Part shown: in pieces, positions 1,696 through 64,000 of the stretch
How positions within the stretch are numbered: the first letter of the stretch is position 1
How the letters are laid out: each line of letters opens with the position of its first letter
Assembly: GCA_029551145.1 (NCBI GenBank)
Contig: JAKPGA010000069.1
Coordinates: forward strand, 44,051 to 108,050
Length of the DNA: 64,000 bases
Reading direction: 5' to 3'
From: Thermotogota bacterium
Lineage (GTDB): Bacteria; Thermotogota; Thermotogae; Thermotogales; DSM-5069
Notes under the pieces: model-generated
What the model was told of the DNA's origin: nothing
Databases searched by the model: none
Seen by the model: only the letters and a program-made list of their open reading frames with translations
Position numbers and translations under genes: made by a program

Positions 1696-1727
1696 AAGGA
1701 GCGTATCTTGATCGATACGCTCCTTTT
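1696..1727 (+). terminator. rho-independent terminator after glyA
   Basis: A perfect 12-bp stem (AAGGAGCGTATC with GATACGCTCCTT) with a 6-nt loop, followed by TTTT, 7 nt after the glyA stop. It lies between converging genes (hisS stop at 1745). The T-tract is only on the plus side, so it chiefly ends the cysS-glyA transcript. Confidence 0.88.
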
Positions 1728-1744
1728 GCGTTTGGATCATATAT

Positions 1745-3007: not shown

Positions 3008-3026
3008 AATTCAGCCCTCCTCTAAT

Positions 3027-5485: not shown

Positions 5486-5509
5486 TCACTTCATCGCTCC
5501 TAAGCTGGC

Positions 5510-44929: not shown

Positions 44930-44946
44930 TTCCTGCGCCTCCCTCG

Positions 44947-46568: not shown

Positions 46569-48023
46569 TCAACGGTCAGTTAATTCAATTTCGACCACTG
46601 TACAGGAAAATGGTTTCATCACGATTTTGAACTCCGTACCCACAGTTACTGGTTCACTACAGATATCCACAGTATTTGGTTTATCAATAGTATTTGTTGA
46701 GCTCACGTCTGGTCCACTAAGAGTATAGGCAACTGCCTTTTTGCTTGCCAAACCTTCTATTCGAATTGGAATCGATATTTCTTCTTTCTTGTAGTTGACT
46801 ACCGTGACAAAAAGTTTCTTCCCATCTTGGGAGACTGTTGCCACTGCGTCCATGTAGGGTACATTAGAGATAGAAAACGGCATTCTGCTGAAGAACATGG
46901 TACCTGTCATATCATAAGTTTCAGTTTCCAAATGCGTTTGTACCAGTTTTTCGCCGGAGTGATTTACAATCAGTTCAAAAGCTTTGTATACCGGTGTGAG
47001 ATACAGGCCATTCTTTTCAGTGTGTATTGCGCCGAGGGCATTAACCAACTGGGCAAGATTTGCTATCGGCACGATATCGCTCATCCTCTGAAGCAGAATT
47101 AGTACGCCACAAGCGAATATTCCGTCTTTCAGGTTGTAAGGTTCTTCCAGTTTGTTGTCCATTACTCTGTGCCATACATTCCATTCGTCGAGAACAATCT
47201 TTATTCCTTTCTTGGCCACACTGCTCATATCTATCAGTTTCTTAACTCCTACGAGTCTCTCCTTGAGCAAATAGACAGTGGAAACCGTTTCATAATAGTC
47301 CTCCGAACCAGTGTAGAAGTGATAAGATATGTAATCCATGACATCGCCTGCGGTATTTAGGACCCGTAGATTCCAATCAGGATCATCACAACCGACCGCG
47401 ATAGTTTTTATAGACGGATCCAAGACCTTCATCCATTTTGCGTATTCTCTGGATTTTCTGGCATATTCATCTGCGGTCATGTGACCAACTTGCCATTCAC
47501 CGTACATTTCGTTTCCAATTCCCCAGAACTTCACGTTGTATGGTTCTGGATGACCATGTTGTCTTCGCAGTTTGGCGTAATACGTATTCCCGTTGCTGTT
47601 GCAATACTCCAACCAATGCAGCGTTTCGTCTAAATCTCCGGTGCCCATATTCGTGCACAGGTATGGTTCTGCCCCGATTTCATTGCAGTATTCAATGAAT
47701 TCATCTGTTCCAAATCTGTTGGTTTCTTCCTGTTGCCAAGCAAGATCGAATCTTGTGGGCCTTTCATCCTTAGGTCCAATACCATCTTTCCAATGATAAT
47801 TGGACACGAAATTGCCACCTGGCCACCTCAGGATAGGAACTTTGATCTTCTTGACAGCATCGAGTACATCCCTTCTGAAACCTCTCTGGTCAGAAAGAGG
47901 AGAATTCTCCTCGTATAAGCCACCATAAATGCACCTTCCAAGATGTTCTGTGAAATGTCCATAGATGTATTTGCTAATCGTCATCAGAACTTTTCTTGGG
48001 TTAACATAGATACTGAATGCCAT
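46569..48023 (-). CDS. abfA: alpha-L-arabinofuranosidase, GH51
   Basis: Removes alpha-L-arabinofuranosyl residues from arabinan or arabinoxylan oligosaccharides. The 484-residue protein opens 'SKYIYGHFTEHLGRCIYGGLYEE', includes 'VPILRWPGGNFVSNYHWKDGIGP', the acid/base Glu of 'FWGIGNEMYGEW' and the nucleophile Glu of 'IVLDEWNVW', with a C-terminal beta-sandwich. No signal peptide, so it acts on imported oligosaccharides. It follows the Opp-type transporter genes by 47 nt and precedes isomerase and kinase, a linear arabinose route. Confidence 0.95.
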   Translation of the reverse strand: MAFSIYVNPRKVLMTISKYIYGHFTEHLGRCIYGGLYEENSPLSDQRGFRRDVLDAVKKIKVPILRWPGGNFVSNYHWKDGIGPKDERPTRFDLAWQQEETNRFGTDEFIEYCNEIGAEPYLCTNMGTGDLDETLHWLEYCNSNGNTYYAKLRRQHGHPEPYNVKFWGIGNEMYGEWQVGHMTADEYARKSREYAKWMKVLDPSIKTIAVGCDDPDWNLRVLNTAGDVMDYISYHFYTGSEDYYETVSTVYLLKERLVGVKKLIDMSSVAKKGIKIVLDEWNVWHRVMDNKLEEPYNLKDGIFACGVLILLQRMSDIVPIANLAQLVNALGAIHTEKNGLYLTPVYKAFELIVNHSGEKLVQTHLETETYDMTGTMFFSRMPFSISNVPYMDAVATVSQDGKKLFVTVVNYKKEEISIPIRIEGLASKKAVAYTLSGPDVSSTNTIDKPNTVDICSEPVTVGTEFKIVMKPFSCTVVEIELTDR

Positions 48024-48070: not shown

Positions 48071-49036
48071 TCATTTGTAAAGCCAGCATGCAACTTCGTG
48101 CCTACCAGACCCAACCTTGATCATATTTGGTCTGGAGTTCTCGCATGTATCAGTTTTGTTGGGACATCTTGAATGAAACCTACAACCTGATGGAGGATTT
48201 ATCAAGCTAACTACCGCACCGGGTATAGGTTTTTTCTCGGTTTTGTCACCTATTCTGGGAATAGAAGAAAGGAGGAATTTAGTATATGGATGCAAAGGCT
48301 TAGAAAACACCTCGTCGACAGGACCATACTCGACGATACATCCACAATACATCACAGCCACAGAACTTGCCAAACCAGGTATCAAAGATATATCGTGCGT
48401 GATGAAAACAAAACTGATCTGCTTTGACAGATGAAGAAAACTGAGAAGCCACAAAATATCTCGCTGAGTCACAACATCAAGAGCGGATGTGGGTTCGTCA
48501 GCGATTATCATCCGAGGATTCAAAAAGGTTGCCAACGCCATTACAACTCTCTGTTTCATACCTCCCGAGAGTTCGAAAGGGTACATTCCCAAAACTTGTT
48601 CTGACAGATTAACCAATTTCAAATGATTCTCAACATCTTTGATTTCGAATGGTACGTTGTGCGATGACAGAAGGTCACGAAAGATCTGGCCCACCTTTCT
48701 TATGGGATTCAAGGCACTCAATGAGCCTTGTGGAATGTATGAAATCTTTTTCCACCATGCCTTTGGCAAGGTATTCTGAACAGGAGAAATCTCGAATTCA
48801 CTGTCATCAAAAGCATAGTGCACGCTCCCAGAGACTATCGATAGCACAGGATCTAAAGCTCCGTATAGCACCTTGGCGAGAGTGGTTTTTCCACACCCTG
48901 ATTCACCCACTATAGCCAGAAAATCATGTTCCTCTATCTCAAAAGACACGCCATCTACAGCTCTAATGTTCTTGGGAAGTCCATTCTGTTCAACCGTATA
49001 GTATGCTCTCAGATCATTCACTCTCATATGAGTCAT
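48071..49036 (-). CDS. Opp/Dpp-type ABC ATPase (OppD-like)
   Basis: ATP-binding subunit of 321 residues. Walker A 'LAIVGESGCGKTTLAKVL', signature 'FELSGGMKQRVVMALA', Walker B 'PRMIIADEPTSALD', and the C-terminal oligopeptide-type FeS/Cys segment 'GCRFHSRCPNKTDTC'. ATG 49036 is 7 nt after GGGGAGG and overlaps the permease stop. Works with OppF encoded at the other end of the transporter set. Confidence 0.92.
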   Translation of the reverse strand: MTHMRVNDLRAYYTVEQNGLPKNIRAVDGVSFEIEEHDFLAIVGESGCGKTTLAKVLYGALDPVLSIVSGSVHYAFDDSEFEISPVQNTLPKAWWKKISYIPQGSLSALNPIRKVGQIFRDLLSSHNVPFEIKDVENHLKLVNLSEQVLGMYPFELSGGMKQRVVMALATFLNPRMIIADEPTSALDVVTQRDILWLLSFLHLSKQISFVFITHDISLIPGLASSVAVMYCGCIVEYGPVDEVFSKPLHPYTKFLLSSIPRIGDKTEKKPIPGAVVSLINPPSGCRFHSRCPNKTDTCENSRPNMIKVGSGRHEVACWLYK

Positions 49037-49908
49037 CGGCTGACCTCCCCAGCATTAACAGTTCTCAAACGTGGATTTATGAAAGATGTGATACTGGTGA
49101 AAAGGAGATACAGAGAGGTGAAAAGCAGAACGATAAAGATTATCGGGAACAATATCCACCACCACGCACCGGTAACCATTGCCTGTTGCTGTATAGCCCA
49201 ATAGGTTACAGTTCCCATGGTTGGAATATCCAGAGGTGATAATCCCAGAATAGATAGAGTTATCTCCAAACCCAGGGACCAGAGCATGTTGTTTATCGTA
49301 GTCGCAAGTACGATAGGCAATATATGAGGAAAATACTCGGAGAAGATCAAGCCAAAAATGCCCCTTCCGGAAAACACAGCGGTCACAGTGTATTTTTGCT
49401 CTCTCAAACTCAGCACCTGGGATCTTATCAACCTTGCATCCCAAGGCCAACCAAACAATGCCAGAACTATTGCCAACGTGGAAAAGCTCATGCTGCGTGC
49501 GATAAGGCGCAAGAAAACCAGTATGGGAAAGATTGGAAGAACAACAAATGTATCACAGAAAAGCATCAATGCATTATCAACCAGCCCCCCACCTTTGTAT
49601 CCAGCAATCACACCTATGACTATCGCCAATACGCGAGACAAAAGCGCAACTTCCAGACCGAATATCAACGAATTCTTCAAGGCAAAGGTAAGCAACCAGA
49701 AAAGGTCTTGGCCTCTGCCGTTTGTTCCAAAGAAATGTTTTAAGGAAGGAGGACGACTTATGGGTGCATAGTAACTTGAACGGGGGTCATAAGGTGAAAA
49801 AAAAGACAGTACTACAAAAGCCAGCAGAAATGCGAGCGTAATTATGGCAAACCTGAATCTCATATCATTTTTGAACATCTTCTTGAAAGCGTTTATAAAC
49901 GAATTCAT
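49033..49908 (-). CDS. Opp/Dpp-type ABC permease (OppC-like)
   Basis: Membrane subunit of 291 residues with about six spans. The N-terminal OppC region ('FFSPYDPRSSYYAPISRPPSLKHFFGTNGRGQDLF') precedes the transmembrane core, with the coupling segment 'LFGWPWDARLIRSQVLSLREQKY'. It partners with the OppB-like permease upstream. Confidence 0.9.
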   Translation of the reverse strand: MNSFINAFKKMFKNDMRFRFAIITLAFLLAFVVLSFFSPYDPRSSYYAPISRPPSLKHFFGTNGRGQDLFWLLTFALKNSLIFGLEVALLSRVLAIVIGVIAGYKGGGLVDNALMLFCDTFVVLPIFPILVFLRLIARSMSFSTLAIVLALFGWPWDARLIRSQVLSLREQKYTVTAVFSGRGIFGLIFSEYFPHILPIVLATTINNMLWSLGLEITLSILGLSPLDIPTMGTVTYWAIQQQAMVTGAWWWILFPIIFIVLLFTSLYLLFTSITSFINPRLRTVNAGEVSR

Positions 49909-49944: not shown

Positions 49945-50973
49945 TCACCCAGATACGTATTGAATTCTGGGGTCAATGAAGGGCAACAAAAGATCAACGA
50001 ACAAGGTTGCAAAGGCTACAGCTACGATCGAAAACAAAGTCGTTCCCATCACCAAGTTGTAGTCTGACTGCATTATGGCTGTATAAATCAAAGTCCCTAA
50101 GCCGGGATAATTGAAGACAATTTCGGTTATTATCGTGCCGTTGAAAATAAATCCGAGTTGCAGAGCTAATCCCGTTAATTGCGCAGGCATGGCAAGCCTT
50201 ATGACATAGCTTCTGAGTATGATTGAGTCTCTCAGTCCCATCTGATGTGCAAAAGTCACAAAATACTCGCTTGTAATGTTCGATACAAGGTTCCGCATAT
50301 TCAAAAACCATGCTCCTATGCCAATAATTATCAGTGAGAGTGCCGGTAGAAAACCGTATTTTACAACGCTCTTGACAAAAGTCCAACTCAACGTTGGTGT
50401 TAATCCAATCTGGTATGCACCGCCCGTTGGAAACCAATGCAGCACGTAGGCAAACAGTATCAACAGTAATAAAGCGAGAATATAGTACGGGATAGGTCTC
50501 ACAGCGTTGGAGATTATTTCGAGAACTCGCACCCACAATCCTTTGTTTCTGTAACCAGCAATTCCACCAAGAACCGTTCCGAAAACCCAAGATATCAGTG
50601 CCGTCAGTGCAAGTAATCCAACGGTCCACGGGAGGGATCGAGCTATAAGCGTCATAACAGGCGTTGGGAAGGATGCGAAAGAAGGTCCTAAGTTCCCTTT
50701 CAACAATTCTTTCCAAAACGTTGTGTACTGTTTCAAAAGCGATCCTTCCAGACCATACAGTTTCAGCAGCGCCTGTTTCATTTTCTCAATGCTATCGGCT
50801 GGCAGGTAAGCCCCCGACATCTGCAACCGCCTGATTGCCATTTCTGCAGGATTTGCACCCGGAACCAGCCGAGGAATCAAAAAGATAATCGAGACGCCTA
50901 TGAAGATGACGAGCAAACTTATTAGCAATCTTGTTATGAAGTACCTTACAATGAATCTCAGAAAATCTTTCAC
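49945..50973 (-). CDS. Opp/Dpp-type ABC permease (OppB-like)
   Basis: Membrane subunit of 342 residues. Opens with the OppB form 'FITRLLISLLVIFIGVSIIFLIPRLVPG'; 'MRNLVSNITSEYFVTFAHQMGL' is the coupling helix region. GTG start 5 nt after GGGAGGAG. Lies 72 nt after the binding-protein gene. Confidence 0.9.
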   Translation of the reverse strand: MKDFLRFIVRYFITRLLISLLVIFIGVSIIFLIPRLVPGANPAEMAIRRLQMSGAYLPADSIEKMKQALLKLYGLEGSLLKQYTTFWKELLKGNLGPSFASFPTPVMTLIARSLPWTVGLLALTALISWVFGTVLGGIAGYRNKGLWVRVLEIISNAVRPIPYYILALLLLILFAYVLHWFPTGGAYQIGLTPTLSWTFVKSVVKYGFLPALSLIIIGIGAWFLNMRNLVSNITSEYFVTFAHQMGLRDSIILRSYVIRLAMPAQLTGLALQLGFIFNGTIITEIVFNYPGLGTLIYTAIMQSDYNLVMGTTLFSIVAVAFATLFVDLLLPFIDPRIQYVSG

Positions 50974-51045: not shown

Positions 51046-52959
51046 TCACTTTCTTCCAGTTGGTTGCAGCTTTATGAACATGAATCTCGTATTTCCCCAG
51101 TTTGGTACAGGATCTGTGTAAGGATCTTGTGCCGTTGGATAGCCAGTCCAATAGTATCCGTCGCAAACTGTGAACACGTTATATGAAAAGACAGGAATTA
51201 TGGGCATGTCTTCTACACAGGTTTTTATGTATTCCAAGCCCAGATCGATCATTTTATCAGTGTCCTTGAAGAAGTCTGTCTGTCTCAACGCATCTATGAT
51301 TTTGTCGATTTTCTCGCTCTTATACCTCATTGGGTTCTTGGCGACAACGGTCTGACCGGTTGGTCTGTAATAATCGGAATGCCAGGACTCGAGGAACCAG
51401 AACAGATCAGGATGTCCACCCCACGTTTCGATACACCATGCCCAGTAGATCGTATCCTTATCTTCTCCGTAATTCATCCTTGTCCACAGCATTGAAGATT
51501 CTACTGCTTCTATTTGGGCATCTATTCCGAATTTCCGCCACTGCTCAGCAACTGCAGCTGCTGCTCTCGTCATGACAGATCTGGTTGCAGCCTCACAGAG
51601 TATGGAGATCTTCCATGGTTTACCGTCTGGCAACAACCACTTTCCTTTTTCTTTCTTGAACCCTACACTCTTCAGAAGCTTTTCAGCTACATCGGGTGAA
51701 TACTTCCACCAACCGTAACCGACCATCTTCCTGATCTCTGCGGGATCGTCCGGCACTTTATAACCATAGGCATACTTGACCGCATCAGCTATCTTTGTTG
51801 GTATCGTTGGATCGTATGGTTTGAATGTCTCAGAACCAATCTTGATTGTAAAGTCTTTTAGCCATGGTTCTATCTTGTCAAAATACCACTCCGGGTCTTT
51901 ACCTGTTGGTGGAACGTGAATTGGTGATATTGTCGCGCAACCATTGTAGGATTGCAGCACAACTTGGACGATATCGATGGCGAGCGTCAGAGCCCAGCGA
52001 ACTTCTTTCAAATTGTATGGGAATTGTTCGTGATTCATGATCAGAGACGGCAAAGTAGGATCTGGATGTGCCCATGGCCAACCATCGAACCAGGTGACAC
52101 AGTATGGGTTATTTTGATGCAGAGTTATTGCTCCCTCGGGTGGTAAGTCGTGGATTATATCAAGTTGATGTGCCATCTGATCCATAACCTTTTTCTCGGG
52201 AGACGCGAGACCTTTGTACAAAACGAATTTTGGACCAGGTTTCTTGCCGAATGCAACGCCAAGATCTGACCTTTCCCAATCCTGTCTCAGTTCCCATAAG
52301 AACCAGTAACCGTTTGGATCGTATGACTTCAAGACATATGGGCCAGTTCCCACTGGTGGATAAAACTCGTATGCAACGGGATCTTCAACTTTTTCAAAGA
52401 TATGCTTTGGCATGATATAACATGCAGACCATCTCACAGTAAAGATCGTATGAAACCTTCCGTTTGGCTTAACAAGTTTGAACACAACAGTATAATCGTC
52501 GACCTTTTTCACTTCCTGAACATTGACCTGCATGTACGCGCCCCATGTCATCTCGGGGTGATTCTTCAAGGTTTCAACGGTGAATATTAAATCATCTGCC
52601 GTAAATGGTACTCCGTCGCTCCAATAGATCCCTTTTCTCAATTTCACCGTCATCTCAGTCTTGTTGTCATTATACAAAGGTGCATCAGCCGCCAACAGAT
52701 TGATCCATGGTTCCCCTTCAATACCAGCATCGGGGTCGATGTACCACAGGGCTCCCAAGCACAGTTGCTGAATACCTGTCGACCAACTTGAAACTCCGCC
52801 TCCCCAGAGATTAAACCTGGTAGGATTCAGAGAACGTCCAGTTGGATCCTCAATGATGATAACTTCATTACGAGGAACACCAGGAAGAACTTCTTCTGCA
52901 AAACCGATTATCCCCGCGATTGTCAGAACTACCAGAACTACCCACTTGAGATACCTCAT
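51046..52959 (-). CDS. Opp-family substrate-binding protein, probably oligosaccharide-specific
   Basis: Receptor of 637 residues with a signal segment cut before 'EEVLPGVPRNEVIIIEDPTGR'. SBP family 5 features are present ('VKLRKGIYWSDGVPFTADDLIFTVE'). In Thermotoga several Opp-type receptors bind glucan, xylan or mannan oligosaccharides rather than peptides; the C-terminus 'DGYYWTGYPTAQDPYTDPVPNWGN' resembles those by memory. With GH51 in the same unit, arabino-oligosaccharides are the best guess. Peptide or glycopeptide binding cannot be excluded. Confidence 0.85.
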   Translation of the reverse strand: MRYLKWVVLVVLTIAGIIGFAEEVLPGVPRNEVIIIEDPTGRSLNPTRFNLWGGGVSSWSTGIQQLCLGALWYIDPDAGIEGEPWINLLAADAPLYNDNKTEMTVKLRKGIYWSDGVPFTADDLIFTVETLKNHPEMTWGAYMQVNVQEVKKVDDYTVVFKLVKPNGRFHTIFTVRWSACYIMPKHIFEKVEDPVAYEFYPPVGTGPYVLKSYDPNGYWFLWELRQDWERSDLGVAFGKKPGPKFVLYKGLASPEKKVMDQMAHQLDIIHDLPPEGAITLHQNNPYCVTWFDGWPWAHPDPTLPSLIMNHEQFPYNLKEVRWALTLAIDIVQVVLQSYNGCATISPIHVPPTGKDPEWYFDKIEPWLKDFTIKIGSETFKPYDPTIPTKIADAVKYAYGYKVPDDPAEIRKMVGYGWWKYSPDVAEKLLKSVGFKKEKGKWLLPDGKPWKISILCEAATRSVMTRAAAAVAEQWRKFGIDAQIEAVESSMLWTRMNYGEDKDTIYWAWCIETWGGHPDLFWFLESWHSDYYRPTGQTVVAKNPMRYKSEKIDKIIDALRQTDFFKDTDKMIDLGLEYIKTCVEDMPIIPVFSYNVFTVCDGYYWTGYPTAQDPYTDPVPNWGNTRFMFIKLQPTGRK

Positions 52960-52983: not shown

Positions 52984-53949
52984 TTATTGATAAAGCCAGC
53001 ACCTAACTGCAACGCCATCAGCTGTGATGTTAGGTGGGGCCTCTTTTTCACATATGCCTTTCTTGTGGGAACATCTGAAAACGAACTTGCAGAGATCTTC
53101 TGAGTATTCTGGTGAAGATTCCACACCTCGACTAACCGGGCCGGGCATTTTCTGTCTTGCTGTGTCCAGTAAATCAGGAACAGATTCTTTCAGTAATTTC
53201 GTATAGGGATGCAATGGAGATGTCAGAACCTTGTCTGCTGGTCCCGATTCAACGATGCTGCCCTTGAGAATCACCGCTATATAGTCACTTATGTAATAAG
53301 CGGTGGCAAGGTCATGAGTTATGTAAAAAACATGAAGTAGTCTTTCATCACGCAGTTTTCGGAAAAGATTCAGGATCGATATTCTCAAAGAAACATCCAG
53401 CATCGAAACAGGTTCATCGGCCACAAGGATTTTGGGATTCACCAATAGAGACCTGGCTATCGACAATCTTTGCAACTGTCCACCGGACAGTTCGTGTGGA
53501 TACCTTCCTTTGATGTCTTCAACTGTCAAGCCAACTGAGCCAAGGGATTCTTCAAGCAAAGAGTAGTTGCCAACCTTTTTCCCAGAGTTTGCTATTTTCT
53601 TTAGCATTATTTGGAAGTATCCCTCTAATTTCTTCAAAGGGTTGAACGTTTCAAAAGGATCTTGGAAGACGGGTTGAATCTGCTTTATGAACTCCGATCT
53701 CGGGTAACTCTCTATGTTCCTACCCATGAACCAAATGGTACCCTTGGTCGGCTTGATAATTCGCAATAGAAGGTTTGCGATCGTGGTCTTTCCGCTGCCA
53801 CTCTCTCCGACTAACGTAAAAACAATAGGATCGCTCTCTATTTTGAAATTCGCATCCCAGACAGCGTGTATTTTATTTGTTGAGAAAAGATGTCCAAGGC
53901 GAAAGGTCTTGTGTACTCCCTCAAAGTGCAGTAGAACATTACTCACCAC
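52984..53949 (-). CDS. Opp/Dpp-type ABC ATPase (OppF-like)
   Basis: Second ATPase (321 residues). Walker A 'FTLVGESGSGKTTIANLL', Q-loop 'QPVFQDPFETFNP', signature 'HELSGGQLQRLSIARSL', Walker B 'PKILVADEPVSMLD', and the C-terminal Cys segment ending in 'RCWLYQ'. The track begins in non-coding DNA; I use GTG 53949, 6 nt after GGGGGG, with GTG 53946 as the alternative. It is the first gene of the transporter-GH51-isomerase-kinase unit. Confidence 0.9.
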   Translation of the reverse strand: MVSNVLLHFEGVHKTFRLGHLFSTNKIHAVWDANFKIESDPIVFTLVGESGSGKTTIANLLLRIIKPTKGTIWFMGRNIESYPRSEFIKQIQPVFQDPFETFNPLKKLEGYFQIMLKKIANSGKKVGNYSLLEESLGSVGLTVEDIKGRYPHELSGGQLQRLSIARSLLVNPKILVADEPVSMLDVSLRISILNLFRKLRDERLLHVFYITHDLATAYYISDYIAVILKGSIVESGPADKVLTSPLHPYTKLLKESVPDLLDTARQKMPGPVSRGVESSPEYSEDLCKFVFRCSHKKGICEKEAPPNITADGVAVRCWLYQ

Positions 53950-54903
53950 TGAATGCCCCCCATTTGCAACATACGTACATATCATCAGATGCGCAAGAAG
54001 GAAAAGCCTGCAAAAAATCATGAATCACGAAATTGCGTGTAATAGTTTCACCTATTTGTACATACATATATCCACTTATATAAATACGCCTCAGCAACCA
54101 GCACAGTCAAGTTCAGAAGAAAGTCGTTATTCACAAACGCAAGCGCATAATCCAATGAAAATGCCGAATACTCAAATTCTCGTTTGTTTTCTCTGTTTTT
54201 CTCCTTATTTTGTATCGAGTTAACAAAACCAACGGCAAGACTAATCACTCTCAGATCTCTTTGTACATCTGCTTTCGATGTACAGAAAAAGTGGAATATG
54301 CCAAAAACGGTATTGATCATTTTGATCACTTGTGCTCGTAACAATCGCAGAATAATTTGCTTTGCTCTTACTTACGATTTGGTCTATCGAGTGCGGTCAA
54401 ATCGGCAGAGACATCTTAGATTCTTTCGAAATTCGCAAGCTGATTTCTCAGATCATCAGCATTGAAAATATGTGTGTCGACTCTAATGATATCAATTGGT
54501 GCCTGTTGATCTATCAATACGAGCAAGTCAGTTGTTTCTCAAACAACTCCGCTCGCACAAGTTTCCAGCATTTGAAATATCATCATTCCTAAGGTCACAA
54601 GTACCAACCTTAAATGGTACGATGATACTGGTCAGTACACAAAAACAGGTACAGCGTACAGCAACCACAATCTTTCAGCTATGTACACACACAATTCATG
54701 TGCCGACAAAATTACCTACACGTAGTAAGAAGCTGAGAAGTCATCTTTTCATAGGTACGTACATATTATGAGAACAAAAATCAGTCTCCCAACTATTCAC
54801 CGTCATTTTTGTTTATCACTATCACACAAAAAGAATTTGAACACTTTCGCACTTTCCTGGATTTTTTTCGTTCTTCTGCATCCCACTCAAGATTTATATA
54901 GTC
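53950..54903. other. 954-bp non-coding region with GTAC-rich cluster
   Basis: No convincing gene on either strand, while the rest of the window is almost fully coding. I count 12 GTAC sites, 8 of them between 54601 and 54762, including inverted pairs GTACCA...TGGTAC and GGTACGTACA. A separate 8-bp inverted repeat lies at 54262-54284. It must hold the promoter and probably operators of the downstream Opp unit. A decayed regulator gene is possible; I could not identify one. Confidence 0.6.
54262..54284. repeat. inverted repeat TGTACATC-7-GATGTACA
   Basis: Perfect 8-bp arms separated by TGCTTTC, inside the non-coding region about 310 bp upstream of the OppF-like start. No T-tract on either side, so a terminator is unlikely; a protein-binding site or RNA hairpin is possible. 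Confidence 0.5.
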
Positions 54904-55800
54904 TTAGCCACCTATTTTCACTTTCAGCCCATTCATTTGTAACTTGTTCTTGATTCTGAGCACGGCTTCATCAAGATCTTTAGTAATGGCATTTCTTGTT
55001 TTTTTCCACAGCGCTTCATATTTCTCTGAGACATCGTGGTAAGGTAGTAGATTCACTTCGATATCGTCGTTCAGAGATTTTAGGAATACTATGAATTCAT
55101 CAGTATCACTCTTTGAATCGTTAACACCTGGTATCACGGGTATACGGATTATTACATGCTTTTTCTTTGAGATCAGCGATCTCAGGTTTTCCTTTATGAT
55201 GTCGTTCTCTACACCCGTATTCTCTTTATGCTTTGCTCTATCAACCATCTTTAGGTCGTACAAAAACAAATCAACGTAAGGAAGAATCTTTTCCAGATCT
55301 TCCTTCGTCGTGTAACCAGAGGTATCGATGGCAACATGAATTTGGTGTGATTTGATTTTCGGGAGAACTTGCAACAGGAAATCAGTTTGAAGAAGTGGCT
55401 CACCTCCAGAGAAGGTGACGCCACCATCAGACTGATCAAAGTACATCATATCCTTTTCGATTTCCCTAAAGATATCCTCCTCTTCTACCCATTTTCCAAC
55501 TACTTTCAATGCAGTTGTTGGACATATTTGCGCACATTTGCCACAGAAAGTACAACGAGTTCTGTCGAGCATTAACCTATCTTCATCAAAGGATAGGGCC
55601 CGGTTTGGGCAAATATCGACACATGATTGGCAGTGAATACATTTGTATCTTGTCCACATGAGTTCAACCGATGGGCATATGCCTTCCGGATTATGACACC
55701 ACCAGCAAGATAAGGGGCAGCCTTTCATGAAGATCGTTGTTCTTATCCCGGGACCGTCATGGATGGCAAACCTCTGTATGTTGAATATCAATCCTGACAT
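54904..55800 (-). CDS. glycyl radical enzyme activase (radical SAM)
   Basis: Activating enzyme (298 residues) that abstracts hydrogen from the glycine of its partner encoded 1 nt upstream. Canonical motif 'FMKGCPLSCWWCHNPEG' binds the SAM cluster. Two ferredoxin-type clusters are inserted ('CIHCQSCVDICP', 'CTFCGKCAQICP'), as in activases of dehydratase-type glycyl radical enzymes but not of pyruvate formate-lyase. 'VTFSGGEPLLQ' and 'HVAIDTSGYT' complete the fold. By context this is the hydroxyproline dehydratase activase. Confidence 0.93.
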   Translation of the reverse strand: MSGLIFNIQRFAIHDGPGIRTTIFMKGCPLSCWWCHNPEGICPSVELMWTRYKCIHCQSCVDICPNRALSFDEDRLMLDRTRCTFCGKCAQICPTTALKVVGKWVEEEDIFREIEKDMMYFDQSDGGVTFSGGEPLLQTDFLLQVLPKIKSHQIHVAIDTSGYTTKEDLEKILPYVDLFLYDLKMVDRAKHKENTGVENDIIKENLRSLISKKKHVIIRIPVIPGVNDSKSDTDEFIVFLKSLNDDIEVNLLPYHDVSEKYEALWKKTRNAITKDLDEAVLRIKNKLQMNGLKVKIGG

Positions 55801-55801
55801 A

Positions 55802-58213
55802 TCAAAATTCTCCCTGTTCCGTTCTGGCGACTATCTCATCCTGCAGTCCCTTTGGAAGACTTACAAAATAATCACTGTACCCAGCTACACGCACCATCAA
55901 ATCTTCAAAATCTGTTGGTCGCTTTTGAGCTTCTCTTAGCAGTTCAGATGAAACCACATTGAATTGTACATGATGACCGCCCATTCTGAAATAGGTTCTT
56001 ATCAACTTACCGAGCTTTTCCAGATTGTCTTTCTTCTTAACCAAATCTGGTGTGAGTTTTTGATTCAACAATGCTCCACCCGTTTTGTCCCAATCGCACT
56101 TGCAAACAGACCTAAAGACTGCTGCGATACCCTTTCTGTCAGCACCTTGAACGGGTGAGATACCTTCTGAAACAGGCATACCAGCCTTTCTGCCATCGGG
56201 TGTTGCACCCGTAACACTCCCAAAATAGACATGGACCGTTGTCGGCAAGAAATAGCATCTTCTCGATGCCTTTCTGACAGGTGTGACAGGGTAGGATTCA
56301 ACCATCAGAACGATTTGATCGACAAGTTTTTTGGCGATGCTGTCAGCATAATCGTCGTCATTACCAAACTTCGGAGTTTTGTTCAGAAATACTTGTCTCA
56401 TATATTCATAGCCTTCAAAGTTTGACTTGAGTGCCTTCATGAGATCGGGGTAACTGAACATCTGTTTGTCAAACACGTTCCACTTTATCGATGCGAGGCA
56501 GTCAGATACCGTGCCAAAACCTACTAATTGGATATATTGTGTGTTGTAACGCGTTCCACCTGCGTTGTAATCTTTTGCATTTTCTACACAATCTTCAATC
56601 CATAAGGACAGAAATGGAACTGGTAGGTACTTGGCATAGAGAGTTTCAATTACATCGTTACCTCTCATCTTAATATCCAGAAAGTGCTTCAATTGTTTCA
56701 CAAACGAGTCGCACAGTTCTTCAAAATTCGCCGGTTCCTTTGTCTCGATTCCTATACGCTTGCCTGTTCTGGGATCAAAACCGCAGTTCAGGGTTATTTC
56801 AAGTATCTTAGGTAAGTTCAAATAGCCAGTCAAAATGTAGGCTTCTTTCCCAAGCGCACCTGTCTCAACGCAACCACTTACTCCTGATTCCCTGGCATCT
56901 TCGAGGGTTTTCCCTTGGCGTAGCATCCTGAGAATGATCCTGTCGTAATTGAACAACGGAGGCTCGCCAAAACCAGGCGAAAGAACCTGCAGAGCCTTTA
57001 CAAGGAACTCATCCGGATTCTTATCGCTCAGCAGCACCGCGGTGTTGGGTTGCAGCGTTCTCATTTCGTCAAGCACTTCAAGTATCAGATAAGATAGATC
57101 GTTAACCGCATTGGACCCATCGGTTTTCAGACCGCCTATGTTGATCTTTGAGAAGTCGTTGTATGTGAAACTTTCTTCTGCCGTTATCTTCACCTTTGGT
57201 ACCGAGGGTTGATTGTTGAATTTGAGCCAAAAAGCCTGAAGCAGTTCTTTGGCTTTCTCCCGTGTAAGTCTACCTGAAGCCATATCTGTGCAGAAAAATT
57301 TGTAAATATGCTGGTCTAATCTCCCTGGAGTGAAAGAGTCCCATGGATTTGTCTCGTAAGTTATTCCAACGTGAATGAACCAGTAATGTTGAAGTGCTTC
57401 CCAAAAGGTTTCAGGTGCATGAGCGGGCACTTTTTCACAGATCTTGGCCATTTCTATGAGTTCCTTCTTTCTTTCATCATCTGTCTCGTTGTCAGCAAGA
57501 TCTCTGAGTTTCTGAGAATATCGATTGGCATATATCAATATGGCATCAGCAGCTATGTTCATCGCTTTGAGTTCCTCACATTTCTCAAAATATTCTGGAT
57601 CTGAAACGGATAATTTCTGCATCTGCTCTCTTATTTTCTGTTTTATATCGAGCACGCCAGTTTTGAAAATCTTGCCACCACCAGAGGTGTGGCCTGGTGC
57701 TCTCTGCTCCATAAACTCTGTCCAAATTCCTGCTTCATATGCGTCTTTCCAATCTTGAGACATGTTTTCAAAGATCAGATCTCTCATAGCCTGTCCCTGC
57801 CAGAATGGGATAACTTCCTTTTCATACGTGCTGCGGGTTTCATCGTCAACTTGAAATGGCATGTTTTTCCTTGTTGCCAGCGTCTGAAGATCCTCCAAAG
57901 TATGAACACATATCTCTGGATAAGTCGGGACTTCCTTTGGTCCAGTTCCTCTAATGCCTACTATGAGCTGCCCTTCTTCTACGGGAAGCGTGCAGTTTTC
58001 CATTACGTACTTGAAGGCCAGGGCACGCAAGACAGGATAAGAGACATTTTTCGGTGCTTTGTATTTGTAGAAATCTGTTATCAATTTTGCACGCTCAACG
58101 GATATCCTTTCCTTGGATTTGATACTTTCTTCTCTTAGTCTTTTTATTCGATCGTTTATGGGTTTCACACTCGAACGTCTTTGTTCAATTTCTTCATAGA
58201 TTCTTGTTTCCAA
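55802..58213 (-). CDS. hypD: glycyl radical enzyme, probable trans-4-hydroxy-L-proline dehydratase
   Basis: An 803-residue glycyl radical enzyme. The glycine loop 'RVAGYSDYFVSLPKGLQDE' holds the radical Gly (~778). The thiyl Cys is in 'GVSGCVETGA' (C448, E450): a C-x-E dehydratase, not the Cys-Cys of pyruvate formate-lyase. Compared with the C. difficile hydroxyproline dehydratase residues as I remember them (D278, S334, D339, F340, C434, E436), this protein has D292, S348, D353, F354, C448 and E450 with identical spacings; F167 and H175 match F152 and H160 with a one-residue shift. It would convert hydroxyproline to pyrroline-5-carboxylate. TTG start 8 nt after GGAGG. No proC is in the window. 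Confidence 0.82.
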   Translation of the reverse strand: METRIYEEIEQRRSSVKPINDRIKRLREESIKSKERISVERAKLITDFYKYKAPKNVSYPVLRALAFKYVMENCTLPVEEGQLIVGIRGTGPKEVPTYPEICVHTLEDLQTLATRKNMPFQVDDETRSTYEKEVIPFWQGQAMRDLIFENMSQDWKDAYEAGIWTEFMEQRAPGHTSGGGKIFKTGVLDIKQKIREQMQKLSVSDPEYFEKCEELKAMNIAADAILIYANRYSQKLRDLADNETDDERKKELIEMAKICEKVPAHAPETFWEALQHYWFIHVGITYETNPWDSFTPGRLDQHIYKFFCTDMASGRLTREKAKELLQAFWLKFNNQPSVPKVKITAEESFTYNDFSKINIGGLKTDGSNAVNDLSYLILEVLDEMRTLQPNTAVLLSDKNPDEFLVKALQVLSPGFGEPPLFNYDRIILRMLRQGKTLEDARESGVSGCVETGALGKEAYILTGYLNLPKILEITLNCGFDPRTGKRIGIETKEPANFEELCDSFVKQLKHFLDIKMRGNDVIETLYAKYLPVPFLSLWIEDCVENAKDYNAGGTRYNTQYIQLVGFGTVSDCLASIKWNVFDKQMFSYPDLMKALKSNFEGYEYMRQVFLNKTPKFGNDDDYADSIAKKLVDQIVLMVESYPVTPVRKASRRCYFLPTTVHVYFGSVTGATPDGRKAGMPVSEGISPVQGADRKGIAAVFRSVCKCDWDKTGGALLNQKLTPDLVKKKDNLEKLGKLIRTYFRMGGHHVQFNVVSSELLREAQKRPTDFEDLMVRVAGYSDYFVSLPKGLQDEIVARTEQGEF

Positions 58214-58238
58214 ATAAATCACCTCCGCGCAGGAATTT

Positions 58239-59324
58239 TCAAAGTGCGATAAGTTCCTCAGTTAGTGCTGTGATTTTCTCAAAACAGCGATCTCGTACGA
58301 TCACGTCATTCTCTATCCGTATGCCGAACTTTCCGGGAATATAGATGCCCGGTTCAACTGTTATTACTGCCCCTGATGGTAAAGGTTCATCAAAGATTGG
58401 TCCCATTCTCGGCGATTCGTGAACCTCAAGACCTATTCCATGGCCCAAACCGTACTTAAAACAGTATTCAGCGTATTTACTCTGGAGAATGACCTGTCTT
58501 GCCACCTGATCCACATGCCTTGCAATCACTCCGGCTGCACCTTCATTTGTTGCCTTCTCAAGAGATTCTCTTACAAGATCATAGCACTCGATGATTTCCT
58601 CTGTGGGCTTCCCCAGAAGCGCCATTCTTGTTATATCACAACAGTAACCATCGATTCGAGCACCGAAATCAAACAAGATCAGTTCGCCGTTCTGTATCTT
58701 TTTCTCTGTGGGTTTCACATGAGGTTTAGAAGTACTTGCCCCAGATCCAATTAGAGTCTCAAAGCCCACTTGAGCTCCAAGTTTCTTGATTCTATATTCC
58801 AACTCAGCACATATCTCAATTTCCGAGACACCATCTTTTACACAAGAAAGCGTTTCCATAAAAGCTTGTTCGGCGATTCTACTGGCTTTACGTATTTTAT
58901 CAATCTCTTCTTCCGATTTCGTCGATCGCATCTTGTAAAGTGTCTGATCAATTGGAACAAACCTGACGTTGAGCATCTTGCTCAGTTCGTCGTAAGTCTT
59001 AAAGTCAAGCCTCTCAGCCTCAAAACCTACAACTTGCGCTGATAGCTCTTTCAAAAAGTTTACCACTGTGTTTGCGAGCCGACCTGTTGTATGTCTCACC
59101 AAGATAAAATCCGTTTCCTGTTCAGCTTGTTCGAAATATCTGGAATCGGTGATTATATAATTGGATTTATCATGGATTATCAGGATGCTACAAGAGCCTC
59201 GAAAACCTGACAAATAAAAGGTGTTGGCGGTTGATGAACTTTCATAGTTCCAAATCATTACTGTATCTACATCTTTACAAACAGAAGATCTAACAGCTTC
59301 CATCAGTTCTTGTGTCCTGTTCAT
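58239..59324 (-). CDS. M24 Xaa-Pro peptidase (prolidase-like)
   Basis: Metallopeptidase of 361 residues that cleaves the bond before proline or hydroxyproline. The five M24 metal ligands are visible: two Asp in 'FDFGARIDGYCCDITR', His in 'GLGHGIGLEVHESP', Glu in 'VEPGIYIPGKFG' and Glu in 'RIENDVIV'. Length and creatinase-like N-terminal domain fit prolidase or aminopeptidase P. ATG 59324 is 7 nt after GGGAG and 14 nt after the GH127 stop. No signal peptide. Between GH127 and the dehydratase it would free hydroxyproline from small peptides. Confidence 0.93.
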   Translation of the reverse strand: MNRTQELMEAVRSSVCKDVDTVMIWNYESSSTANTFYLSGFRGSCSILIIHDKSNYIITDSRYFEQAEQETDFILVRHTTGRLANTVVNFLKELSAQVVGFEAERLDFKTYDELSKMLNVRFVPIDQTLYKMRSTKSEEEIDKIRKASRIAEQAFMETLSCVKDGVSEIEICAELEYRIKKLGAQVGFETLIGSGASTSKPHVKPTEKKIQNGELILFDFGARIDGYCCDITRMALLGKPTEEIIECYDLVRESLEKATNEGAAGVIARHVDQVARQVILQSKYAEYCFKYGLGHGIGLEVHESPRMGPIFDEPLPSGAVITVEPGIYIPGKFGIRIENDVIVRDRCFEKITALTEELIAL

Positions 59325-59338
59325 ATGTGTTCTCCCTT

Positions 59339-61231
59339 CTACACCAATCTTATCCATACGACCATCGGTCCCGCATCTCTGTTTGCCCATAGGCAATATG
59401 GAATGAGTGTAAATTCGACAGGCTTATCGGCCTCTATTTTGCTAACTGGCACGTAAAGTTTGCCTTTCCAATAGTCCATATCGTAGGCAAATCCCTTACC
59501 ATGGATCGAAGTCACTGCACCAAGAGCATCAATGTTCCCGTATTTAGTCTCCAGTTCTGGCTGCTCATAATTTACCCTCAAGGCACGAACCTCGAAATTG
59601 TTATCAGCAGCTTCTGCACAATACACAACTGGGCCTCTCTTAACAGCAGCTCTGCCTCTGTTTTCTTCTACAAAAGGATGACTTCGAACCAGTTCAACTG
59701 GCATTGAGAAAGATAGATCCACTGAATCACCTGTTTTCCATATTCTTCTCAGTTCAACGTAACCATTCTTTGGCTTAACATGTACACTCTCACCGTTCAA
59801 TCTAACTGAGAAATCTTCAGTCCAACCTGGTATTCTCAAAAAGACTGATATTTCTTCTGTGGGGTCACATCTGTCAAAATGAATTCTCACTTCCTCAGAC
59901 CAGGGATAATCCGTTTCCATAGTTATTCGTAGGTGCCCAAAACGCGTATTGAAATCCGCTTTACTTTCTTCATAAAAGTTCACGAACACCTTCGACTCAT
60001 CCTTTGCCAGTGAATATATGTACCCGGGTAGGGAAGTGATGAGCCTTGCTATATTCGGTGGGCAACAGGCGCACTCAAACCATTCTTTTCTTCTGTGTGT
60101 GCCATCACTTTCCAGTGGATTGTCGTAGAAATAATGCCTTCCATCCAAAGAAATGCCTGAGAGCAACCCGTTGTAAAGCACCTGCTCCATCGTATCTACG
60201 TATTTACCATCAGCGGTTGCCAAGAACATCCTGTAATTCCACATAAAGCTTGCGATTGCCGCACAGGTCTCTGTATATGCTCTTTTGTTTGGCAGTTCGT
60301 ATTCTTTACCAAAAGCCTCCCACTCGGATCGAGAGCCACACCCGCCTGTGATGTGCATCTTCTTTTGCACAAGATCGTTCCAAAGTCTTTCAAGGGCTTT
60401 CCAGAGGTCTTTAGCACCTGTCTCAAGATAAACATCAGCGGCACCGCAGCATAAATACAGCATTCTGACCGCATGCCCAGCAAGTTCGTCGAGTTCGACA
60501 AAAGGTTTGTGATCGACAAAATACTCTGGTGTTATACCTGGGTATTTCGAACTGCTTGCGTAACCTTTTCCCCGCGCACGCACAAAATAATCTGCGAGCT
60601 TCAGGTATCTTGAATCTCCTGTTTCTCTGTACAATTCAACAAGTGCCATCTCAACCTCGGGATGACCATCGAGTTCTGGTCTTTTGTTCGGTCCAAAAAC
60701 GCTATCTATGTGATCGGCAAATCTTCTTGCCACTTCAAACAAAGTGTCCTCGCCGGTTAGTCTTTTATTTGCAATCGCCGCTTGAATTAGGTGACCAGCA
60801 CAATACATTTCATGAGACCAACCAAGATCTGTCCACCTTTCGCTTTTTTTGTCCTTCGGATAATAACTGTCGATATAGCCATCGTCATCCTGTGCAGCCT
60901 TGATCTCCTGAATGGCAAACTTGAGAGCTTGTCTGAGTTTTTCATTTGCTTTTGTTGCAAGAAGAAAGGAAACTGCTTCAGCCCATTTGTGAACATCGGT
61001 ATCATTGAAACGAAAACCTTGGAAAGATCCCTTCTTCTTACCGGATGCAAATCTCAGGTTATCCATCCGTCCTGTTTTTTCCAAAAGATCATACATCGTT
61101 GCAAGTGTTACTCGATCTGCCCTTTCAAGATAATCCCCTAAAAAACCAAAGATTCGAACACTGGATATTTCCACGCCTTTCAAGACTGCAAAAGGACTTC
61201 TCTGCACATCAACGGGTAATCTTTCACCCAT
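59339..61231 (-). CDS. beta-L-arabinofuranosidase, GH127
   Basis: A 630-residue (alpha/alpha)6-barrel glycosidase like Bifidobacterium HypBA1, which cleaves beta-L-arabinofuranose on hydroxyproline in extensin-type glycans. The zinc-thiolate site is present: E321 and C323 in 'YTETCAAI', C389 and C390 in 'WFECACCPPN' (one is the nucleophile), and acid/base E305 in 'SEWEAFG'. The 16-residue and 2-residue spacings equal E322/E338/C340 of HypBA1 as I remember them. No signal peptide, so it acts in the cytoplasm on imported substrate. ATG follows GGGAGG. Transporter genes precede it and a prolidase follows. Confidence 0.93.
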   Translation of the reverse strand: MGERLPVDVQRSPFAVLKGVEISSVRIFGFLGDYLERADRVTLATMYDLLEKTGRMDNLRFASGKKKGSFQGFRFNDTDVHKWAEAVSFLLATKANEKLRQALKFAIQEIKAAQDDDGYIDSYYPKDKKSERWTDLGWSHEMYCAGHLIQAAIANKRLTGEDTLFEVARRFADHIDSVFGPNKRPELDGHPEVEMALVELYRETGDSRYLKLADYFVRARGKGYASSSKYPGITPEYFVDHKPFVELDELAGHAVRMLYLCCGAADVYLETGAKDLWKALERLWNDLVQKKMHITGGCGSRSEWEAFGKEYELPNKRAYTETCAAIASFMWNYRMFLATADGKYVDTMEQVLYNGLLSGISLDGRHYFYDNPLESDGTHRRKEWFECACCPPNIARLITSLPGYIYSLAKDESKVFVNFYEESKADFNTRFGHLRITMETDYPWSEEVRIHFDRCDPTEEISVFLRIPGWTEDFSVRLNGESVHVKPKNGYVELRRIWKTGDSVDLSFSMPVELVRSHPFVEENRGRAAVKRGPVVYCAEAADNNFEVRALRVNYEQPELETKYGNIDALGAVTSIHGKGFAYDMDYWKGKLYVPVSKIEADKPVEFTLIPYCLWANRDAGPMVVWIRLV

Positions 61232-61254
61232 CTTTCTTACCTCCCTTCAATCGA

Positions 61255-62103
61255 TCACTTCATACCTGTCATGACAATGCCGCGTTGGAAATAATTCTGC
61301 CCTATGAAATAAATAACAATCGGAGGAATCATAATCACCGAAGATGCTGCCATCAAAAGGTTCCATTTCGTGCTGTAAGCCCCTCGAAATATAGTCAATC
61401 CGACAGCCAAAGTATATTTTTTCGCATCATTCAGGTAAATAATGGGTCCCATCAGGTCTCCCCAAACACCAAGAAAAGTGAATACAGCTACGGTTATAAG
61501 TGCAGGTTTAGACAAAGGTACAACGATCTTCCATAAGACTTGCCATGGTGTTGCTCCATCAAGATAAGCAGCCTCATCAAGTTCGATTGGCAGACCCGCG
61601 AAAAATTGTCTGAGCATGAAAATGTAATAAGCACTACCACCGAACCAAGCTGGGACCGTCAATGGTAGGTAAGTATTTACAAAACCAAGTGATTTCCAAA
61701 GAATGAAGGTTGGGATTAGCGTAACGGCATACGGTATCATCAAAGAAGTCAAGATTATGAAGAACAAAAGATCTCTGCCACGCCAACGAAGTCTGGAAAA
61801 TGCAAATGCAGCCATTGGTGCAGTTAATAGCGTACCAGCCTCGACAAACACCAATACAATCAGTGTGTTGAAAAGATATCTGAAAAACGGCATAGCAGTC
61901 AAAGCTTGAGGATAGTTCTGCCAGCGAAATGGTTTTGGGATCCACTCCAGTGGCATCCTGAAAATCTGACCAGTAGACATCAATGAACTTCTAACCAGCC
62001 ACAAAAAAGGCATGAGATATATTACCGATCCCAGAACCAACACGATGAATGTAACAGTCTTTCCTGTTAGAAAAGTTGTCCTCCTTCCTCCAAGACTTGC
62101 CAC
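61255..62103 (-). CDS. CUT1 sugar ABC permease (MalG-like)
   Basis: Membrane subunit of 282 residues with six spans and the coupling motif 'PIELDEAAYLDGATPWQVLWKIVVPL' (EAA motif of sugar importers). C-terminal hydrophobic end typical of MalG-type permeases ('YFIGQNYFQRGIVMTGMK'). Pairs with the MalF-like permease 18 nt upstream; GH127 follows after 23 nt. Confidence 0.93.
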   Translation of the reverse strand: MASLGGRRTTFLTGKTVTFIVLVLGSVIYLMPFLWLVRSSLMSTGQIFRMPLEWIPKPFRWQNYPQALTAMPFFRYLFNTLIVLVFVEAGTLLTAPMAAFAFSRLRWRGRDLLFFIILTSLMIPYAVTLIPTFILWKSLGFVNTYLPLTVPAWFGGSAYYIFMLRQFFAGLPIELDEAAYLDGATPWQVLWKIVVPLSKPALITVAVFTFLGVWGDLMGPIIYLNDAKKYTLAVGLTIFRGAYSTKWNLLMAASSVIMIPPIVIYFIGQNYFQRGIVMTGMK

Positions 62104-62121
62104 TTTTTACACCTCCAGGAA

Positions 62122-63003
62122 TTATTTTCTCAGTGCTTCGTAATAAACCCAGTACCGTGATGTCCTAAATATGATGACGGTTAAGCATATAATTATCGCG
62201 AAGATTATCACCGACAAAGCGCATGCGTACCCCATTTTTCCATACTGAAATCCTGTGAGAAAGATATAGTACGTGTAGAACATACTTGAGTAATTCGGAC
62301 CACCGCTGGTCATAATATATGCCTGTGTAAATCCACCTTGCAATGCACCTATAACACCCATGAGCAGGTTGAAGAATATGGTAGGTGTCATCATGGGTAT
62401 GGTCACGTGACACAATTTGTGCCACCAGGTTGCGCCGTCAAGCATGGCTGCCTCGTAAAGATATTCTGGTATTCCCTGTAGTCCAGCAAGGAAAATCGTT
62501 ATTGTGTAACCTATGGTCCAGGTACTCATCACAATAAAGGCTGGTATCACTTGTTTCTCATCGTATATCCATCTGAGTGCCGGCAATCCTATCGATTTGA
62601 AAATATGGTTCAATAAGCCAAACTGTGGGTGGTACAGCGTCAACCAAACCATTGCGACCGCAACAGATGGTGTGATCGATGGTATAAAGAAGAATGTTCT
62701 AAACAGTGATCTTCCAGGGACTTTCACATTCAACAGTAGTGCCCAGAAAAAACTAACAAGCAAGCCAGCGACTACACTTCCAATGGCGTAATAGAAAGTT
62801 ACGAAAAGCGACTTTTTGAATATGAAGTCATTGAAGAGTTTTGCGTAGTTTTCCCATCCTATCCATTGAGGTTTACCTGCGAGTGACCAGTTCGTGAAAC
62901 TCATAAAAATCGCCGCGATTGTTGGACCCAAGACCCACAAAAAGTATCCAACAATTCCAGGAAGAGCAAGCATAATACCCCATTTTGTCTCGAATTTCTT
63001 CAA
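62122..63003 (-). CDS. CUT1 sugar ABC permease (MalF-like)
   Basis: Membrane subunit of 293 residues, short form without the large MalF periplasmic domain. EAA motif 'IPEYLYEAAMLDGATWWHKLCHVTIPMM'. N-terminal 'GIMLALPGIVGYFLWVLGPTIAAIFMSFT' is typical of the UgpA-like group. No ATPase gene is in the unit; CUT1 systems commonly share an MsmK/UgpC-type ATPase encoded elsewhere. Confidence 0.93.
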   Translation of the reverse strand: MKKFETKWGIMLALPGIVGYFLWVLGPTIAAIFMSFTNWSLAGKPQWIGWENYAKLFNDFIFKKSLFVTFYYAIGSVVAGLLVSFFWALLLNVKVPGRSLFRTFFFIPSITPSVAVAMVWLTLYHPQFGLLNHIFKSIGLPALRWIYDEKQVIPAFIVMSTWTIGYTITIFLAGLQGIPEYLYEAAMLDGATWWHKLCHVTIPMMTPTIFFNLLMGVIGALQGGFTQAYIMTSGGPNYSSMFYTYYIFLTGFQYGKMGYACALSVIIFAIIICLTVIIFRTSRYWVYYEALRK

Positions 63004-63030
63004 AGGACTTCACACTCCTTGTATGAAATG

Positions 63031-63056
63031 AGAGGGGGCAATGACTCTCCCCCTCT
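63031..63056 (-). terminator. GC hairpin between sugar receptor and permease genes
   Basis: AGAGGGGG-AGAGTCATTG-CCCCCTCT on the minus strand, 22 nt after the receptor stop, with CATTTCAT after it and no real T-run. It looks like a receptor-mRNA stabiliser or partial terminator, in the same position as the LIV hairpin. Confidence 0.6.
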
Positions 63057-63078
63057 GATCAAGTTGTGATGAAAATGA

Positions 63079-64000
63079 TCATTTGTCGTATCTTCCAGCC
63101 AAGAGCGGTTTAATCTTGGCAGCAGCTTCTTTACAGACCTTTGATATATCCTCTTGACCGTAGAATATCCTACTCATTTCCTGGACAACAATTGTATTTA
63201 TCTCTGCAACATTCTTTAGATAGGCATTAGGATATGGTTTTGCATACCCATAGTAGTTGACAACGGCTTCCTTATACTCTTTGGGATGTACCTGCGGGTT
63301 CAACCATTTGTTGATGTATTCCTCTTTTGTGTACCAGTCAAGCGTTGTAGGTTGCCACAGACCGCTTCTGATCACTTCCACGACTTGATCTGGGTTTTCA
63401 ATGAACTTGTAGAATTCCCAAGCAGCTTGCAACACCTCAGGGTCATTCTTAACTGCATCTTTGAATATTCCAATGGGAGCACCTTCCACACCAGTCACCG
63501 GATTCTTCATGTACGGCAATGGTGCTACACCAAATCTCATGCCCTCTTCTTTGGCGATTTGAGCGGCTTCCTGCATTGCCCACTGACCGTCAAGGACCAT
63601 TGCAACCTGCCCTGTTTGCAGCGCAACATTCAAGCTTGGGAAGGCATCGGCTGCCGCAGGGGCTATCGCAGCGTAGTCCTTGTAGATCAGGTTGTATATC
63701 TTTTGAATTGCTTCAATGGTTGCTGGCGAATCAAGCATCACCTGTTGCCCGTTTTCGTCTACTATGTCTCCCCCGTTGGACCAGAGCAGAGGGTACAAAA
63801 CCCATGGACTCGTTCCCCCACCACCGATTGCTGCTCCGTACTGCACGATGTTCTTGGCGTCAAATCCTGGGTCGCCTGGTCTTCTGCCTTTGTTATCAAA
63901 TGTCAGTTTCTTTGCAGTCTCAACAAACTTATCCCAGGTCCATTCTTCTGGTTTTGTTGGAGGATATGGCACCTTTGCCTTGTCGAACAAATCTTTGTTG
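63079..64000 (-). CDS. CUT1 extracellular sugar-binding protein (C-terminal part)
   Basis: Gene enters from beyond the window; the frame stays open to base 64000 ('NKDLFDKAKVPYPPTKPEEWTWDKFVETAKKL'). SBP family 1 features are 'VPYPPTKPEEWTWDKFVE', 'VQYGAAIGGGG', 'FPSLNVALQTGQVAMVLDGQWAM' and a C-terminal lobe. It is the receptor for the two permeases downstream; signal peptide and first lobe start are outside. The ORF-track TTG at 63990 is internal. Ligand by context: arabinosylated hydroxyproline or short beta-arabinosides. Confidence 0.92.
   Translation of the reverse strand, partial: NKDLFDKAKVPYPPTKPEEWTWDKFVETAKKLTFDNKGRRPGDPGFDAKNIVQYGAAIGGGGTSPWVLYPLLWSNGGDIVDENGQQVMLDSPATIEAIQKIYNLIYKDYAAIAPAAADAFPSLNVALQTGQVAMVLDGQWAMQEAAQIAKEEGMRFGVAPLPYMKNPVTGVEGAPIGIFKDAVKNDPEVLQAAWEFYKFIENPDQVVEVIRSGLWQPTTLDWYTKEEYINKWLNPQVHPKEYKEAVVNYYGYAKPYPNAYLKNVAEINTIVVQEMSRIFYGQEDISKVCKEAAAKIKPLLAGRYDK

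Follow-up and report, generated by a model that had tools for sequence, protein, structure and literature searches.

Does the operon at the end of this contig tie the use of arabinose to the breakdown of hydroxyproline, or do genes for the two only lie side by side? The window that we analysed, a 64,000-nucleotide stretch of DNA from a Thermotogota bacterium (G000:C43:44051-108050), ends on the last base of its contig, and relatedness suggests that its source is a thermophile of the genus Pseudothermotoga. The initial annotation had described seven minus-strand genes with gaps of 1-75 nt at 54904-64000; all seven are present and belong to the families it assigned, in the order CUT1 solute-binding protein (SBP), two permeases, GH127, M24 peptidase, trans-4-hydroxy-L-proline dehydratase (HypD) and activase (Table 1). 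The intergenic gaps are 1 nt between activase and HypD, 16 nt between HypD and M24, 14 nt between M24 and GH127 (with the corrected M24 start), 23 nt between GH127 and permease, 18 nt between the permeases and 75 nt between permease and SBP.

The extent of the operon had to be redrawn on both sides. The SBP is incomplete because the contig stops within it, at window base 64000. Relatives with complete sequence have one more gene at the start of the operon, a second SBP that is 71 per cent identical to the first. The arabinose locus runs downstream to 43409. Contig C58 of the same genome, beyond the assembly gap, bears at 1-6347 the second-SBP start, a CUT1 set, an AraD-type aldolase and a regulator, which places the contig break within the duplicated SBP genes.

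Table 1. Features of the arabinose and hydroxyproline locus (window coordinates).
Feature	Coordinates	Strand	Remarks
CUT1 solute-binding protein, 5' end missing at contig end	63079..63999	-	G002 full-length ortholog 450 aa, matches 6RJY
CUT1 permease 1	62122..63003	-	
CUT1 permease 2	61255..62103	-	
GH127 beta-L-arabinofuranosidase-family enzyme	59339..61231	-	CACCP and ETC motifs kept
M24 proline peptidase (prolidase / aminopeptidase P type), extra paralog	58239..59324	-	
Predicted trans-4-hydroxy-L-proline dehydratase HypD (glycyl radical enzyme)	55802..58222	-	
Predicted radical SAM activase of HypD	54904..55800	-	Best family NF043069, under its cut-off
Putative AraR-type operator, matches WATGTACGTACNWW	54752..54765	-	Where relatives hold a CUT1 and GH10-family block, likely lost here
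AraR-type operator-like site, 2 mismatches to palindrome	54055..54068	-	Just upstream of Opp operon
Opp-family ATPase	52984..54021	-	ORF maximum; G002 ortholog 323 aa
Opp-family solute-binding protein	51046..52959	-	
Opp-family permease	49945..50973	-	
Opp-family permease	49033..49908	-	
Opp-family ATPase	48071..49036	-	
GH51-type alpha-L-arabinofuranosidase	46569..48023	-	
Sugar isomerase, L-fucose isomerase C-terminal family (PF02952)	44947..46371	-	
FGGY pentulose kinase, likely ribulokinase role	43409..44956	-	

In G002 and G003, both complete chromosomes from the genus, the block has the same order, namely second SBP, SBP, permeases, GH127, M24, HypD and activase. Identities to the G002 and G003 orthologs are, respectively, 80 and 65 per cent for GH127, 82 and 66 per cent for M24, 88 and 83 per cent for HypD, and 74 and 62 per cent for the activase. 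Around the block in these chromosomes lie a GntR/LacI regulator, an L-ribulose-5-phosphate 4-epimerase-type aldolase (AraD), more CUT1 transporters, a GH10-family protein, GH51-type arabinofuranosidases, a PF02952 isomerase and an FGGY kinase. The genome of the window has no PF02610 AraA, so the PF02952 isomerase is likely a replacement L-arabinose isomerase. The HypD module would sit inside a locus for the use of L-arabinose that is controlled by an AraR-like regulator. Two further observations concern this region. A copy of the isomerase (44947-46371) with 73 per cent identity occurs in the arabinose locus of genome G009. Between the activase and the Opp operon, the gap at 54022-54903 contains decayed fragments with 75-78 per cent identity to the end of the G002 GH10-family region and is flanked on each side by an operator-like site; a recent deletion of a CUT1/GH10 block is likely.

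The regulator (L028:4177-5250) combines a GntR DNA-binding domain with a LacI-type sugar-binding domain, and its ortholog in the genome of the window is found at C58:5229-6299. For a first operator scan we used the Bacillus subtilis AraR consensus, which returned GTACGTAC palindromes in gaps preceding transcription units. A stricter pattern, WATGTACGTACNWW, derived from these same loci, was then scanned over four whole genomes and matched four sites in the genome of the window (C43:98802, which is window position 54752, and C58:676, 4202 and 6303), four in G002 and two in G003, every one of them in the arabinose/HypD locus. There were no sites genome-wide in G001, which lacks HypD, and the reversed pattern, used as a control, gave one match over the four genomes together. 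Upstream of the HypD operon, the site at C58:676 precedes the first gene by approximately 160 nt; in G002 the corresponding distance, from site 1475661, is approximately 150 nt. Arabinose is the inducer of the AraR regulon in Thermotoga maritima (PMC3750489). The HypD operon and the arabinose genes apparently share one arabinose-type switch, at whose putative operators the regulator would bind and induction would take place.

HypD scores above its cut-off in 11 of 103 genomes of the phylum. The GH127-M24-HypD synteny for which the initial annotation had suggested searching Thermotogae genomes is found in G002, G003 and G084, the last from another family. One minus-strand run in G084 encodes GH51, GH127, M24, HypD, activase, a GntR/LacI regulator and an Fe-ADH_2 protein, from the family to which AraM belongs. 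The GH127 and HypD of G084 are 52 and 69 per cent identical to those of the window, and its M24, of 593 aa, is of the three-domain aminopeptidase P type, unlike the M24 of the window. G099 has the same block minus GH127; its HypD-side M24 (L156:1975-3423) is split among several reading frames, in what is apparently a decaying operon. In the HypD tree, G084 and G099 group with Acetomicrobium, apart from the group of the window HypD, with high support. Since HypD lies on another branch and the M24 is of a different type, the operon of G084 and G099 is most simply read as the same set of genes having been brought together a second time; alternatively, single genes may have been replaced within one ancestral operon.

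All three GH127 family domains (PF07944, PF20736 and PF20737) are present in the operonic enzyme, its CACCP (cysteine nucleophile/zinc) and ETC motifs align with those of HypBA1, and its N-terminus has no apparent signal peptide. Aceric acid hydrolase was rejected as its identity (NF049879, 484.9 bits, far under the cut-off of 950). The enzyme scores higher against the Geobacillus GH127 4QJY, its best solved relative (456 bits), than against HypBA1 (346 bits), and the arabino-oligosaccharide-binding protein 6RJY of Geobacillus arabinan use is one of the two best solved relatives of the operon SBP. The Geobacillus system serves arabinan use and is not known to include hydroxyproline genes. The background in the initial annotation, that HypBA1 takes arabinose off hydroxyproline, is too simple: HypBA1 is described as cleaving the Araf-beta1,2-Ara released by GH121, and cleavage of Araf-beta-Hyp is ascribed mainly to GH146 (PMC10850190, PMC7263609). 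The models used covered families other than GH121, and it is to those families that the annotated genes of the locus were assigned. Elsewhere in the genome, at C7 223-4063 (L037), a second GH127, 51 per cent identical to the operonic one, adjoins a very distant GH127-like protein that had no match among solved structures; the pair lies near a CUT1 importer and also occurs in G001, G005, G007 and G010.

GH127s with 57-58 per cent identity to the operonic enzyme occupy Thermotoga-type AraR arabinose loci without HypD, so the GH127 of the window need not act on Ara-Hyp. TM0280 of T. maritima is a member of the GH127 family. It is strongly induced by arabinose within an AraR regulon that has no HypD (PMC3750489). 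Together with the affinities of the SBP and of GH127 to Geobacillus proteins, these observations favour a reading in which GH127, GH51 and the transporters serve pectic arabinan and other arabinosides, and the hydroxyproline module is under AraR control only because hydroxyproline, free and in peptides, occurs together with arabinose in plant debris, with no Ara-Hyp enzyme involved. We consider this reading unlikely, if worth keeping in mind, because in a second family, with a HypD from another branch, M24 and HypD again stand beside GH127 and GH51, a recurrence that points to a closer tie than general co-occurrence. There is good support for the connection of arabinose with hydroxyproline, but not for the exact bond cut by GH127; that the enzyme would cleave the Ara–Hyp bond is less certain.

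The identity of the glycyl radical enzyme is much firmer. It passes the cut-off of the HYPD equivalog in a full-length match (1127.1 against 1100 bits), and its best solved relative is the HypD 6VXC (920 bits, the next reaching 506). In the alignment with 6VXC, the Gly radical loop and the CXE motif are present, and the equivalents of R156, H160, D278, K326, S334, D339, F340, C434, E436, Y450, T645 and G765 are all kept. These residues bind hydroxyproline or are essential, and D278 and D339 are strictly conserved in HypD and not in other eliminases (Backman et al., PMC7077986). Hydroxyproline lyase (HplG), which scores far lower, and other glycyl radical activities were ruled out by score and residues. 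The activase, encoded directly after HypD, reaches 383.6 bits against NF043069, below the cut-off of 425, which is still its best match among 88 families. As the superfamily is functionally diverse and only about half of the positions are identical to 6VXC, one might suppose a diol or amine as substrate, or a hydroxyproline lyase; with the equivalog cut-off passed and every hydroxyproline-contacting and catalytic residue in place, including D278 and D339, this is highly improbable. The evidence supports the call of the initial annotation, HypD, with a predicted conversion of trans-4-hydroxy-L-proline to pyrroline-5-carboxylate (P5C).

The M24 peptidase starts at ATG 59324 and not at TTG 59396 of the longest open reading frame, since its orthologs in the two other species have 361 aa. 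It combines PF00557 with the prolidase N-terminal domain PF01321, can be aligned over its length with T. maritima 2ZSG and has the metal-ligand motifs, in agreement with the prolidase originally proposed. All 31 genomes of one comparison carry a housekeeping-type M24 that is 38-49 per cent identical to the operonic one, and the operonic type is limited to G000, G002 and G003, exactly the HypD carriers among the 31. Against 2ZSG the C58 copy scores 373 bits and the operonic M24 284 bits, which makes the latter an extra, diverged paralog and excludes it as the sole housekeeping prolidase of the genome. The results support a dedicated extra peptidase with predicted Xaa-Pro/Xaa-Hyp cleavage. Among the matches listed for other phyla, M24 is found no further than 5 kb from HypD at 16 of the 59 loci with usable flanks, often directly after it; M24 beside HypD is a recurrent theme in this sample.

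The HypD operon contains no dedicated P5C enzyme. The initial annotation had suggested a search for proC, and the gene is found, over its cut-off, at C58:34484-35254. With one model for P5C dehydrogenase, nothing in the genus passed the cut-off, and the genome of the window and the genus yielded sub-threshold aldehyde dehydrogenases only; a search for the glycine/proline reductase family gave no match in any control genome. P5C is likely reduced to proline.

The neighbours of the window HypD in the tree are from Thermococcaceae, Bacillota and Synergistota, and the gene was probably gained horizontally. Its near relatives, among the matches listed, include a Thermococcaceae metagenome-assembled genome (MAG), Desulfofundulus, Tepidanaerobacteraceae and Acetomicrobium, and the assertion that none occurs in a thermophile was too strong for HypD itself. 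HypD with an adjacent activase was also seen in archaeal MAGs of Thermococcaceae and Thermoplasmata (L043, L053 and L054), and the Thermococcaceae copy adjoins an Opp-type transporter. Arabinose genes, GH127 included, were found near HypD in none of the 59 informative loci of other phyla among the matches listed (at least 80 HypD loci, a sample in which G084-type loci are not included). Probable horizontal acquisition notwithstanding, chance juxtaposition of a mobile HypD module with no functional tie to arabinose is scarcely credible, because the full order is kept with small gaps in the window and two other species, an operator-like site precedes the operon, and the series GH51-GH127-M24-HypD-activase is found again in another family, there with an M24 of a different type.

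The gene content, its conserved order, the HypD residues, the operator-like sites with their positions, and proC are observed directly. Locus conservation, the operators, the HypD-restricted M24 and the recurrence in another family indicate that arabinose and hydroxyproline use are genetically joined, and the coupling first suggested is upheld by the order kept in G002 and G003, the distribution of M24 and the G084 operon. We judge it probable that this is an L-arabinose locus under an AraR-like repressor with a built-in hydroxyproline-destroying module (M24, HypD and activase), which would work as follows. The CUT1 and Opp-type transporters may import arabinosylated fragments of plant hydroxyproline-rich glycoproteins, from which cytoplasmic GH51 (alpha) and GH127 (beta, if its bond is the one presumed) would strip off arabinose. 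M24 would liberate hydroxyproline from short Xaa-Hyp peptides; the activase would put the glycyl radical into HypD, which would turn trans-4-hydroxy-L-proline into P5C; and chromosomal ProC could reduce P5C to proline, as both a biosynthetic gain and an electron sink. The isomerase, FGGY kinase and AraD would together convert arabinose to xylulose-5-phosphate, and arabinose is the likely inducer of the whole gene set. Of the initial interpretation, the HypD identity, the coupling and the dedicated M24 stand; the account of HypBA1 was too simple and the claim about thermophiles too strong for HypD itself. The wider arabinose locus with its putative operators is an addition to that interpretation.

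The literature search found no paper joining GH127, prolidase and HypD, nor hydroxyproline with Pseudothermotoga, consistent with the earlier remark that no such operon had been described. The T. maritima AraR regulon (TM0276-TM0284; PMC3750489) shares with the locus a GntR-family AraR, an arabinoside transporter, an alpha-arabinofuranosidase, arabinose catabolic genes and TM0280. As described, however, it has no M24, HypD or activase, all three of which are in the window operon, and the isomerases differ, that of T. maritima being a classical AraA (PF02610) and that of the genome of the window belonging to the PF02952 family. The Hyp-glycan system of Bifidobacterium longum (HypAA GH43, HypBA2 GH121, HypBA1 GH127 and an ABC importer; PMC7263609) likewise pairs a GH127 with an ABC sugar importer, there for beta-arabinose of hydroxyproline-rich glycoproteins, but removes the disaccharide extracellularly, and its described cluster is without a hydroxyproline enzyme, whereas the window operon has a peptidase and HypD. 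Gut Clostridiales have the same glycyl radical enzyme and activase and can likewise reduce P5C to proline (PMC7077986); there HypD lies near a P5C reductase gene, whereas in our genome it lies in an arabinose operon with proC elsewhere. The novelty would lie in a new combination of known modules, for which the genomic evidence is strong.

We lean, by a modest degree, toward a dedicated anaerobic intracellular pathway, assembled at least twice in the phylum, that uses plant hydroxyproline-rich glycoproteins for their sugar as well as for their hydroxyproline, with HypD under an arabinose-sensing repressor. HypD is best known from gut Clostridiales, and in that setting collagen is the main source of hydroxyproline under discussion. 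The locus suggests that plant cell-wall glycoproteins are a natural source of hydroxyproline for HypD and that a glycyl radical enzyme may be controlled by a sugar. It would provide an anaerobic route, open to test, by which hydroxyproline from extensins and arabinogalactan proteins is consumed, as well as thermostable candidate enzymes for the Ara-Hyp linkage, and is a case in which a recurrent gene association predicts function.
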